A stretch of 64,000 bases of DNA from Marinifilaceae bacterium (lineage in GTDB: Bacteria > Bacteroidota > Bacteroidia > Bacteroidales > Marinifilaceae). Position 1 is the stretch's first letter, and each line of letters opens with the position of its first letter. The translations under genes were made by a program, and so were the position numbers. Of this stretch, positions 31,880 through 35,934 are shown piece by piece. The notes beneath the pieces are model-generated. The model was not told the origin of the DNA and made no database searches. It was given only the letters and a program-made list of their open reading frames with translations. The stretch is taken from contig JAGBFU010000018.1 of assembly GCA_017936285.1 (NCBI GenBank), positions 1 through 64,000 of the forward strand. Reading direction: 5' to 3'.

Positions 31880-33052
31880 ATGAGTATCAAGGAGACATAT
31901 CGTTTTGCAAAGGAATATCAGGATAGTGACACTGACAAATTGCTTTTAAAAAGTAAAAACTATCCCGAGGTCGATATGCGGCGTGCTGTTATGCAAATTC
32001 TGTCAAGACGTGCTGTCAAAGAGAAGCTACCAACATGGTATTGCAACAATGAGATACGTTACCCATCCAAACTATCTACCGAGCAATGCTCATCCGAGAT
32101 TACTGCGAAATACAAAGCCTCGCTTATTACTGGAACAACTCTGTCCGATTTAACAGGGGGGCTTGGAGTTGATTGCTGGGCCTTCTCCATGAAAGCAAAA
32201 CAGGTTAAATACTACGAGCGATATGAGGAGTATTGCTCCGCAGCAGAGCACAACTTTAAGGCTCTTGGATGCATGAACATTACCATCCATAATTGCGACT
32301 TCCGCGACATCATAGATTCCATTAATGCCGATACTATATATATCGACCCTGCCCGTCGGGGCGAGAATTCACAACGTCTTTTCTCTCTGCAGGAGTATGA
32401 ACCCAACGTTGTTGAACTGAAAAATACACTACTGGATGCTTCATCCCTGTTGATTATCAAGGTCTCTCCCATGGCAGATATAACCGCAATATGCCAGGAG
32501 ATTCCGGAAATTTTCGAAATTGATATTGTTTCGGTAAAGAATGAGTGCAAAGAGCTGCTTCTGCTTGCCCATAAAGGTATCGCTGACGACTTAAAAGTCG
32601 TTACATTAAATTTTGATGGCAATAGAGAGCAAAGAGTTGAGTTTATGCGCTCTACCGAGGGAGAGCTGACAAACGACTATGCAAAAGAGATAGAAGAATA
32701 TCTATACGAACCCAATAGCTCTGTTATGAAAAGCGGATACTTTAAGAGTATAAGCTCTATTTTCGGAGTCAAGCCTATTGGTCGCAACAGCCATCTGTTT
32801 ACCTCCGGGAACAGGGTTGAGAACTTCCCGGGAAGAGTTTTTCGCATAAAAAGGGTCATAGATTTCTCTTCAAAGTGGCTTAAGGGTGCAAAAAAGGAGT
32901 TTTCCAAGGCAAATATAGCAGTAAGAAACTTTCCACTTTCTGTGGCAGAAATCAGAAAGGCGACAAAAATAGGAGACGGTGGAGATGTATATCTCTTTGC
33001 AACCACCATTAATCCGGGGAAAAAAGTAATAATCGAGTGTTGTAAAGAGTAA
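31880..33052 (+). CDS. THUMP-like domain class I SAM methyltransferase
   Basis: A 390-residue protein. The SAM-binding loop is DLTGGLGVD near residue 90, the acidic ribose contact is YYERYEEYC, and the catalytic-type motif is YIDPARRGEN near 152. The C-terminal 100 residues correspond to the THUMP-like domain annotated in Bacteroidota homologues. An RNA substrate is likely but not shown. It follows the XRE gene and precedes the channel-like gene by 49 bases. Confidence 0.82.
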   Translation: MSIKETYRFAKEYQDSDTDKLLLKSKNYPEVDMRRAVMQILSRRAVKEKLPTWYCNNEIRYPSKLSTEQCSSEITAKYKASLITGTTLSDLTGGLGVDCWAFSMKAKQVKYYERYEEYCSAAEHNFKALGCMNITIHNCDFRDIIDSINADTIYIDPARRGENSQRLFSLQEYEPNVVELKNTLLDASSLLIIKVSPMADITAICQEIPEIFEIDIVSVKNECKELLLLAHKGIADDLKVVTLNFDGNREQRVEFMRSTEGELTNDYAKEIEEYLYEPNSSVMKSGYFKSISSIFGVKPIGRNSHLFTSGNRVENFPGRVFRIKRVIDFSSKWLKGAKKEFSKANIAVRNFPLSVAEIRKATKIGDGGDVYLFATTINPGKKVIIECCKE

Positions 33053-33101: not shown

Positions 33102-33782
33102 ATGAAACATACAGAATCAGAAGAGTTATCACACAAGCAATTTGTCAACACTATTGTTATTTTCGCAAGCATAGCCTTAATTATCCAGATATCAATTGAC
33201 ACCTTCACCCCCATGCTTCTATCCGAGAGTTTCATCAGAAACTTTCAACTTGTTATCTGTGCAATATTTTTATATATGCTTATCTACGAGATGAAAACCT
33301 CGAAAGAGCCACAAAGATATTTCTGGATTCATTTACCGCTCTTTATCATATCAATCCCATTCCTTACCATTATACAATGGTTCGGCATTAATATTGAGCA
33401 TGAGTTACACCTGTTCTTCTATACTATCCCGGCTATCCGTGGAATAGTTGCACTTTTCCTTATTGTCAAGTGGTTGGTTCCGCAAAAGAATCTATCACTA
33501 CTTATCGCCTACTCATCAACTCTTATTTTGACAACATACTATGGAAGCCTGATATTTTACCAGGCAGAATTGGGTATGAATCCGCAAATAAAAAACTATT
33601 GGGATGCACTTTTCGGATGGGCTCTTATGAATACAACAACAGTAGGTGCTCCAATATTTGCCGTCACAAAAACAGGGCAATTCCTTGCAGTCATCCTATC
33701 AGGTGGCGGCATGCTGTTCTTCCCTATTTTCACAAGCTATATTGTAACAAAATATCAGGATAGCCACAAAGAGAGTAATTAA
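33102..33782 (+). CDS. Potassium-channel-like membrane protein with TVGAP filter
   Basis: The ATG at 33102 gives 226 residues; a GTG at 33078 would add eight. Five hydrophobic segments precede a pore-helix-like stretch (NYWDALFGWALM), then TTTVGAP and a last helix (FLAVILSGGGMLFF). This is the S5-pore-S6 pattern of voltage-gated-like potassium channels; the residues after the filter (AVTKTGQFLAV) also align with the usual PVT..G segment. The filter core TVGYGD is replaced by TVGAPI (bases 33636-33656), so ordinary K+ selectivity is doubtful. The fourth helix lacks a regular arginine ladder. It is followed by a shared terminator. Confidence 0.65.
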   Translation: MKHTESEELSHKQFVNTIVIFASIALIIQISIDTFTPMLLSESFIRNFQLVICAIFLYMLIYEMKTSKEPQRYFWIHLPLFIISIPFLTIIQWFGINIEHELHLFFYTIPAIRGIVALFLIVKWLVPQKNLSLLIAYSSTLILTTYYGSLIFYQAELGMNPQIKNYWDALFGWALMNTTTVGAPIFAVTKTGQFLAVILSGGGMLFFPIFTSYIVTKYQDSHKESN

Positions 33783-33837: not shown

Positions 33838-35934
33838 TCAATTCGCAGCCTTGTACTTCTCAACTCCGGCCTTCAGGAACTCAACGAAAGCATCGGCATC
33901 CAGATTATATCCACGAGCCGGCATCATAACGTACGGACGAAGATTCTCCTCTTCACCATGGCGGCTGTTCAAAAGGATATAATTTGGCTGTGCATTAGAG
34001 TCGAAGTTATTAATCTGGAAATCAGCATTCTTCTTTCCAAGTGTATTCTTCAACTTACCATCCTTGCCTGTGTATTGCTCTGCCTCAGGAAGCTCTGTCT
34101 TGTCATCGACATACAATGCACAAATGATATAGTCGTTTGTCAAAATCTCTATTACTCGGGGATCTGACCAAACGCTCTGCTCCATCTCACGACAGTTGAC
34201 ACATCCATGTCCTGTAAAATCAAGGAACAGAGGCTTATTCTCGGCCTTGGCAACACGCAAAGCCTGCTCGTAATCGAAGTATCCCTCCAAACCGTGAGCC
34301 AAGTGCAGGAAGTTTGCATACTTAGGCTCCTCACGCTGCTGAACTGTTGAAGATATTGCAGAACCGCGCAATGAACGAACATTCTCGCGAACAATTCTGT
34401 TAATATCGAAGTCGATAGTCTCTTGTGGTGGCAAATATCCTGCCAATGCCTTCAATGGAGCACCGAACATTCCAGGAACCATATATACAACAAATGTAAA
34501 TACGACAATCACTAACGAGATTCTCAAAATACCCAATGGTTTCTCACAGTAGTCTGCATCATCGTGTTGCAATTTGAATTTACCCAACAAATAGAGACCA
34601 ATCAACGAGAATACCACAATCCAGATAGCGATATAGATCTCACGATCAAGAATTCCCAAATGGTATGTCTGGTCGATTACCATCAGGAACTTGAATCCCA
34701 ATGCAATCTCAATGAATCCCAATACAACCTTAACTGAGTTCAACCAACCTCCAGACTTTGGAAGTGATGACAACTTAGATGGGAAGAAAGCAAAGAATCC
34801 AAATGGAAGTGCTACCGCCAATGAGAATCCAAACATTCCGATAATCGGACGCAATACTGAACCACGAGCTGCCTCAACCAAAATAGTACCTACAATTGGA
34901 GCGGTACAAGAGAACGACACCAATACCAATGTAAATGCCATAAAGAAAGCACCGATGTAACCTCCCTTATCTGCTTGCGCATCTGTCTTATTTACCATCC
35001 ATGATGGCAATACAATCTCGAACGCACCAAGGAATGACGCTGCAAAGATCATAAAGATTACAAAGAAGAACAAGTTAGGTACCCAGTTTGTACTCAACCA
35101 GTTTGTGAAATCAGCTCCCAGCAAGAATGAGATAATCAATCCGATTACTGTATAAATGAAGATAATAGAAAAGGCATAGAAAAGCGCTTTCATCTTAGCC
35201 TTCTTTTTATCCGCATCACTATGCATAAAGAACGATACTGTCATAGGAATCATCGGGAATACGCATGGCATAATAACTGCAGCCAAACCTCCAGCGAATG
35301 CTAACCAGAAGAAAACCCACAAAGAGTCCTCTTTCTCCTCTGTAGCAGGCTCAACCTCTGCCTCAGCAACAACAGCAGGAGCAACTGGCTCAGCAACACT
35401 CTCACTCTGTGGAGCAACTTGCTCCTTTACAGGCTCAGTTGCCTTCTTAGGCTCCTCTTTCTTTGGTGCATCTTTTTTGGCAGGAGCAACAACCTTGCGC
35501 TCAACAGGAAGTGAGAAATCATAGCTTCCCATTATACATGAACCGCCATCCTGACACAATTGATAATCAACACATCCAGCGATAGCCTTTGCAGCATCGT
35601 CTGTAAACTTAACTGTCTGGGTAATTGTAAAGTTACCCTCAAATGACCATACATCAACCTCAAAGATGTCATCATAAGCCTTATGAGGCTCCGGAGCCTC
35701 CACTGCCTTATCAACTCCCTCAACGCCCTTGTTATAGGTGATTGATGTAGCCATTGGACCACCAACAGGTGTGTTCATTGAGTACACATGCCATCCTGCA
35801 GGTATACTACACTTAAACTCTACCTTGTAATTTCCATCCTTCAATGGAGTTACACTGCTCTTCCAAGCAGCCTCTTGTGCATTCAGTGCAATACCGAACA
35901 GGCACAAAAGAGATACGATTAATAATTTTTTCAT
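33838..35934 (-). CDS. DsbD-type thiol:disulfide reductase
   Basis: It passes reducing power from cytoplasmic thioredoxin across the inner membrane to periplasmic thiols. The 698 residues have a signal peptide (cleavage near ALNAQ), an N-terminal immunoglobulin-like domain with Cys in YQLCQDGGSC, a Pro/Ala/Glu/Lys-rich linker at about 150-205, eight or so helices with the membrane cysteines in MPCVFPM and SFSCTAP, and a C-terminal thioredoxin-like domain with GCVNC. It stands alone between rng and a convergent gene; trxB elsewhere in the window would supply electrons through thioredoxin. Confidence 0.9.
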   Translation of the reverse strand: MKKLLIVSLLCLFGIALNAQEAAWKSSVTPLKDGNYKVEFKCSIPAGWHVYSMNTPVGGPMATSITYNKGVEGVDKAVEAPEPHKAYDDIFEVDVWSFEGNFTITQTVKFTDDAAKAIAGCVDYQLCQDGGSCIMGSYDFSLPVERKVVAPAKKDAPKKEEPKKATEPVKEQVAPQSESVAEPVAPAVVAEAEVEPATEEKEDSLWVFFWLAFAGGLAAVIMPCVFPMIPMTVSFFMHSDADKKKAKMKALFYAFSIIFIYTVIGLIISFLLGADFTNWLSTNWVPNLFFFVIFMIFAASFLGAFEIVLPSWMVNKTDAQADKGGYIGAFFMAFTLVLVSFSCTAPIVGTILVEAARGSVLRPIIGMFGFSLAVALPFGFFAFFPSKLSSLPKSGGWLNSVKVVLGFIEIALGFKFLMVIDQTYHLGILDREIYIAIWIVVFSLIGLYLLGKFKLQHDDADYCEKPLGILRISLVIVVFTFVVYMVPGMFGAPLKALAGYLPPQETIDFDINRIVRENVRSLRGSAISSTVQQREEPKYANFLHLAHGLEGYFDYEQALRVAKAENKPLFLDFTGHGCVNCREMEQSVWSDPRVIEILTNDYIICALYVDDKTELPEAEQYTGKDGKLKNTLGKKNADFQINNFDSNAQPNYILLNSRHGEEENLRPYVMMPARGYNLDADAFVEFLKAGVEKYKAAN

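Follow-up and report, generated by a model that had tools for sequence, protein, structure and literature searches.

The glutamate decarboxylase (GAD) system of Bacteroides has been described as a set of four genes, for GAD, a glutaminase, an antiporter and a potassium channel, all of which co-occurred in 90% of the 961 genomes surveyed by Otaru et al. 2021 (PMC8082179). Next to the gad genes, Pennacchietti et al. 2018 (PMC6250119) also noted a putative voltage-gated K+ channel, mostly in Bacteroidetes and including Odoribacter splanchnicus; they termed it K+-selective and stated that no report had ever given it a clear role in acid resistance. In B. thetaiotaomicron, where the channel is named BT2572 (PMC10434189), the layout is gadB(+), glsA(+), channel(−), gadC(+), and the four genes decreased together in co-culture in a 2020 study (PMC7568257). 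The association between channel and GAD is already published under the name of a K+ channel, and what we add here is the missing signature. The accessible passages of PMC8082179, PMC6250119 and PMC7568257 contain no mention of the filter, and the term "selectivity filter" occurs in the available text of PMC6250119 only in the title of a reference. Among the titles and abstract openings retrieved on GAD-linked potassium or cation channels, none mentions a filter change, and a literature search with the filter strings returned titles and abstract openings with nothing on channels.

Described channels with other filters provide the second point of comparison. Cyclic nucleotide-gated (CNG) channels have the filter T-I-G-E and non-selective permeation (PMC12375067; PMC6091977), the two-site filter of NaK is non-selective (PMC9822992), and Derebe et al. 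(as cited in PMC3895005) regard four contiguous sites as essential if a channel is to select K+.

The window analyzed here is a stretch of 64,000 nucleotides from a Marinifilaceae bacterium. The gene under study (P0001; pos. 33102–33782, + strand, stop included), identified by ORF reading and family alignment, encodes a predicted short-filter channel of six transmembrane segments (6TM) and 226 aa, with an ATG start and an intact ORF containing no internal stops. Searches with P0001 alone revealed weak homology: E was 9.9 for Pfam Ion_trans_2 and 2e-4, far under the model cut-off, for NCBIfam NF040645 (hyperpolarization-activated K+ channel), and, among PDB sequences, 4.6e-5 for Lmo2059 and ~1e-3 for KcsA; a scan of the genome contigs with P0001 as sole query gave no match. 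In contrast, the family profile matched full-length Kv2.1 at 5.4e-14 with S1–S6 aligned, and at E 0.01 Ion_trans_2 was matched by 51/52 family members and Ion_trans by 28/52, P0001 itself matching neither. Homology to K+ channels is thus weak from P0001 alone but clear from the family.

Alignment to K+ channels showed that TVGYGD-I is replaced by TVG-AP-I, in which YGD is swapped for two residues. The resulting shortened filter T-V-G-A-P-I (residues 180–185; pos. 33639–33656, + strand) takes the place of T-V-G-Y-G-D-I and is one residue shorter; with T179 included, the stretch T-T-V-G-A-P-I covers pos. 33636–33656. We take the lost residues to be Tyr78, Gly79 and Asp80 in KcsA numbering. An earlier reading made from the sequence alone (hereafter the sequence-only reading) had placed a change from TVGYGD to TVGAPI at pos. 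33636–33656; the altered filter was confirmed there, but the change is larger than had been described, since Tyr is also lost and one residue is deleted. Judging from these alignments, P0001 is a putative channel of a known kind, with the K+ signature lost and a filter one residue too short. The pore of CNGA1, when aligned with the family, displayed the identical gap, i.e., a filter one residue shorter than TVGYGD.

The family set comprised 52 different proteins, complete or partial, with scores of >160 bits against profile A1, drawn from 59 relatives, 393 genomes of the order (Bacteroidales) and 14 further loci; the 13 lower-scoring rows of the same set were canonical TVGYGD proteins, fragments or oddities. 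The short filter was present in 52/52 members and the T-x-G-Y/F-G-D signature in 0/52, whereas Y/FGD was retained in 32/32 canonical relatives in the tree described below. T179, T180 and G182 are invariant (52/52), as are G192 and G203. Position 183 is S in 31 members, C in 14 and A in 7, and position 185 is I in 45, V in 6 and L in 1; position 184 is N in 26 and one of seven other residues (eight in all) in the rest, with P in 3/52. The sequence-only reading had raised the fixation of TVGAP across Bacteroidales, which was not observed: the commonest form is TTVGSN(I/V), AP is a minority form, and what is fixed across the family is the short length together with T-T-x-G-(S/C/A)-x-(I/V/L). The same reading had allowed that homologues might carry random residues here, but because position 183 accepts only S/C/A, position 185 accepts only I/V/L (n = 52) and T179, T180 and G182 do not vary, the site is constrained, not random.

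NG86 dN/dS was ~0.05 for the pair L007/L008 and 0.08 for L039/L046, low values that indicate purifying selection on the family genes; L001/L002 gave ~0.08 with saturated dS, and L041/L044 gave no dS estimate. A chance motif was ruled out by the invariant positions and this selection. A sequencing or assembly error was likewise ruled out, because the nearest relative (L002; 74–76% identity to P0001), encoded by a second genome of this genus, also has TVGAPI, and the same deletion is found in 52 proteins.

In a quick tree calculated with the filter columns removed (89 rows: 52 short-filter, 32 canonical and 5 other; L076 and L085, which are each split in two, were left out, as were two duplicates, L078 and L079), all 52 short-filter rows were on one side of a single branch with support of 100, and L013 was the canonical row nearest to this clade. 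Two rows with the same short length, L077 (494–1252, + strand) and L097, were classed as other, together with three more odd rows. They form a separate 6TM pair with YG-less short filters (SMGTENWP and TTIGSDFWP, respectively, the latter within TTIGSDFWPQT in the L097 ORF) and cluster with each other (99), apart from the short-filter clade, so short filters arose more than once in Bacteroidota. By this tree, one origin applies to the 52-member family, with short filters arising at least twice in the set. Other relatives deviated in different ways: L072 (91–837, + strand) and L074 (452–1231, − strand) have T-F-S-Y for T-V-G-Y and other odd residues, being altered but not shortened, and L091 has LGMDYCSPPIS at the filter position, without TVGYGD.

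A sample of the phylum contained any match in 71/395 genomes, and among the 30 loci read, short-clade members came only from Bacteroidales. Three more short-filter records bear the names Bacteroides, Parabacteroides and Phocaeicola, genera that all belong to Bacteroidales; the filter reads TTVGSNI in the proteins from P. distasonis and B. finegoldii. The short-filter family is therefore Bacteroidales in all members found so far in the phylum sample and the genomes of the order. Four genomes of one family, f26 (G059, G172, G267 and G407), each contain two short-filter paralogues (L054/L059, L062/L063, L061/L066 and L055/L065) that fall into two subclades, none of them beside GadC. A short filter, TTVGAAIFP, was also found near the end of an IMG/VR contig classed as viral (L109), possibly in host flanking DNA. 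L110, L111 and L112 come from TSDC17.2-1.1 strains, in circular records that are large and labelled "plasmid" but contain housekeeping genes (bioD, uvrA) and look like mislabelled chromosome pieces.

An AF2 monomer model of P0001 based on the 52-row alignment (mean pLDDT 87.6, pTM 0.80) contained six helices and one pore loop; the names S1–S6 follow helix order in this model, and all positions are on the + strand. S1 (residues 4–35; pos. 33111–33206) and S2 (residues 42–66; pos. 33225–33299) are followed by a short helix (residues 70–76) and by S3 (residues 78–94; pos. 33333–33383), which is broken at P86, invariant in the 52 members, into helices 78–83 and 87–94. The S4-like helix (residues 100–125; pos. 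33399–33476) has few basic residues, among them R113, which is invariant in the 52, and is separated by three residues only from S5 (residues 129–156; pos. 33486–33569), which ends at the invariant E156. The pore helix (residues 166–179; pos. 33597–33638) and its loop lie between S5 and S6 (residues 190–223; pos. 33669–33770), and the pore superposes on that of KcsA with an rmsd of 2.3 Å over 98 residues at 26% identity. The pore of the K+-channel superfamily that had been recognized from the sequence is thereby supported, and the re-entrant loop on which that recognition depended is present in the model. Each chain has one pore helix and one filter, i.e., a single pore loop in place of the pair that defines two-pore-domain K+ channels, the product name under which the protein has been published.

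Whole-chain structural alignment gave Slo2.2 (Z 15.3), HCN1 (14.6) and SthK (14.5) as the best among the matches listed; CNG channels were not among the 50 structural matches listed, which excludes nothing. Slo2.2 is presumably non-domain-swapped. The same architecture has been described for SthK, HCN1 and TAX-4 (PMC6093708). The number of K and R residues in S4 was 1–3 in the 52 short-filter members versus 4–7 in the 32 canonical relatives, without overlap. Repeated basic residues in S4, the hallmark of voltage-gated K+ channels, are thus absent from the short-filter family, which, having lost most of its S4 charge, is unlikely to be gated by voltage in the classical manner. P0001 ends 3 residues past S6 and therefore has no cytoplasmic ligand domain.

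The family shares its 6TM organization, the filter one residue shorter than TVGYGD and the alignment gap with CNG channels (CNGA1, TAX-4). CNG channels, however, have a C-linker and a CNBD, neither of which is found in P0001, and carry Glu after T-x-G, whereas position 183 in the family is S/C/A in 52/52, so the outer site would differ. NaK and NaK2CNG resemble the family in their bacterial K+-channel fold, and have the reduced number of filter sites and the non-selectivity that are predicted for it, but the NaK filter (TVGDGN) is of full length, unlike that of the family, and NaK2CNG is a chimera made by engineering and does not occur in nature. Canonical prokaryotic 6TM K+ channels (KvAP-, SthK- and MVP-like) share the fold, pore helix and flanks, in line with the weak NF040645 match; in contrast to the short-filter family, the canonical relatives read here have TVGYGD and a charged S4.

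Among the 393 genomes of the order, 48 matched, of which 34 were counted as short-filter carriers (E 2.1e-49 or better) and 14 had weaker matches only; the carriers contain 39 copies in 13 families and 18 genera. Gene families were named on one locus, L015 (GadC TIGR03813 2.9e-234, GadB TIGR01788 2.8e-191 and glutaminase NF009020 8e-137), and the neighbours at the other loci were grouped with these by BLAST. GadC was above cut-off in 29/393 genomes, comprising 21/34 channel carriers versus 8/359 non-carriers (raw counts, with kinship ignored), and GadB was found in 39/393 genomes, 22 of them with the channel. At the genus level, 13 genera had both channel and GadC, 5 the channel only, 1 GadC only and 188 neither. 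GadC was located within 1.6 kb of 14/39 channel copies, across 6/13 families and in varied gene orders; 25/39 copies, some on short contigs, were not within this distance. That the channel always accompanies GAD was ruled out, GadC being under cut-off in 13/34 channel genomes.

In the Odoribacter, Butyricimonas and Sanguibacteroides loci (L015–L018, L020–L022), the channel gene is downstream of gadC and glsA and shares their strand, and in loci of four other families (L036, L039, L050, L056) it is located between these two genes and points the other way. The gadB-glsA-channel-gadC layout of B. thetaiotaomicron matches that of L039 and L050, and by this comparison BT2572 probably belongs to the same family; the B. 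thetaiotaomicron-type channel is published as a K+ channel, whereas the K+ signature is missing from the family members read here and each chain of P0001 has a single pore loop. In P. distasonis, the TTVGSNI channel adjoins an annotated GadC. In B. finegoldii (L110), the TTVGSNI channel is beside an L-lactate permease, not gad genes, and is annotated as "potassium channel family protein".

The window copy is not beside gadC, glsA or gadB; it is flanked by ORF 31880–33052 and ORF 33838–35934 on the other strand, an order kept in a locus of the same genus (L014). Six of ten genomes of the window family had GadB and GadC over the cut-offs, with each GadC ~1.6 kb or less from the channel, and neither gene was found in the window genome, its genus mate (82–83% complete), G013 or G018 (99%). 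It seems that gadB and gadC have disappeared from the window genus and that the channel has stayed; as the two genomes of this genus without these genes are ~82% complete, the role of the channel in this genus is less certain. The window genome keeps a Pfam glutaminase (3.8e-102; L108, G000:C46:2249–3097), with neither GadB nor GadC found. Positions 183–184 are SN in 11/14 GAD-linked copies and 6/25 unlinked copies (raw counts, with kinship ignored), which suggests that GAD linkage holds the filter near SN while orphan copies drift, the AP of the window being an orphan form. A conserved family, a deletion as well as a substitution, and a link to an acid-resistance system all go beyond the sequence-only reading.

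We give roughly even odds to the proposal that these proteins are Bacteroidales channels with six transmembrane segments and one pore loop per chain, whose shortened, weakly selective or non-selective Na+/K+ filter provides a charge shunt for the GAD/GadC cycle. By analogy the channel would be a tetramer, with YGD of each filter replaced by the two-residue S/C/A-x pair. With the Tyr78 and Gly79 rings gone, fewer than four contiguous ion sites would be left, as in CNG channels and NaK2CNG, so that selectivity between Na+ and K+ would be weak or absent. The opening stimulus may be acid pH, and the family at large would act with the glutaminase/glutamate decarboxylase/GadC acid-resistance system. 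GadC exports more positive charge (as GABA+) than it imports, which would make the membrane hyperpolarized; Na+ or K+ entry through the channel would return charge and sustain the GABA cycle as an electrical shunt, and a Na+-permeable pore would let charge flow inward across a broader span of voltages than one that passes K+. In the window genus without gadB and gadC, the role of the channel may have shifted. The logic of such a shunt has been set out for ClC in E. coli (PMC10394335), likewise proposed to serve amino-acid decarboxylation cycles. ClC is an anion exchanger of unrelated fold whose genes coexist with the short-filter channel. A role of the channel as substitute for missing ClC was not supported: ClC was found in 36/37 genomes, 28/29 with the channel and 8/8 with GadC but no channel, the sole miss being G045 (61% complete).

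The published annotation assumes instead a K+-selective channel that supplies K+ for GadC and pH balance despite its short filter. Retention of TTVG, of a pore helix resembling that of Kv channels and of the VT that follows the filter is consistent with this, as are the K+-channel label in the literature and the statement that K+ entry helps GadC (PMC6250119, PMC8082179). We nevertheless regard it as unlikely, given that the Y/FGD kept by all 32 canonical tree rows is absent from 52/52 members and that CNG channels and NaK2CNG, whose filters have this length, do not select among cations. Loss of both the filter signature and the gating charges would also fit release from channel function, i.e., a non-conducting pseudo-channel serving as sensor or partner subunit; the five invariant residues (T179, T180, G182, G192 and G203) and the restriction of position 183 to S/C/A look like a working pore under selection, and make this reading improbable. 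Slightly less probable still is a selective path for another ion tied to glutamine metabolism (Na+, glutaminase-derived NH4+ or H+), which the ammonium released by the neighbouring glutaminase and the frequency of polar residues at 183 (S/C) and of N/D/E at 184 would suit, but for which a fixed acidic ring of the Nav/Cav type is missing, position 184 varying among eight residues.

A weakly selective or non-selective cation shunt would have consequences for how the GABA system is understood, because GABA output of gut Bacteroides has been linked to these four genes, one of which has been labelled K+-selective in the literature, yet belongs to a family without the signature. Somewhat short of an even chance, in our estimate, is the broader view that the "potassium channel" of the Bacteroidales GABA system is not a K+ channel, and that a natural filter of CNG length passes both Na+ and K+ as the cation charge return for GABA export. 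If the pore is non-selective, the family would offer a natural bacterial model of a CNG-type filter that is only ~225 residues long and free of any ligand domain, a purpose for which the engineered NaK2CNG has been used, and models of charge balance in GABA export would have to replace K+ entry by the entry of cations in general. If this is true, membrane-potential balancing in the Bacteroidales GAD system would run on cations.
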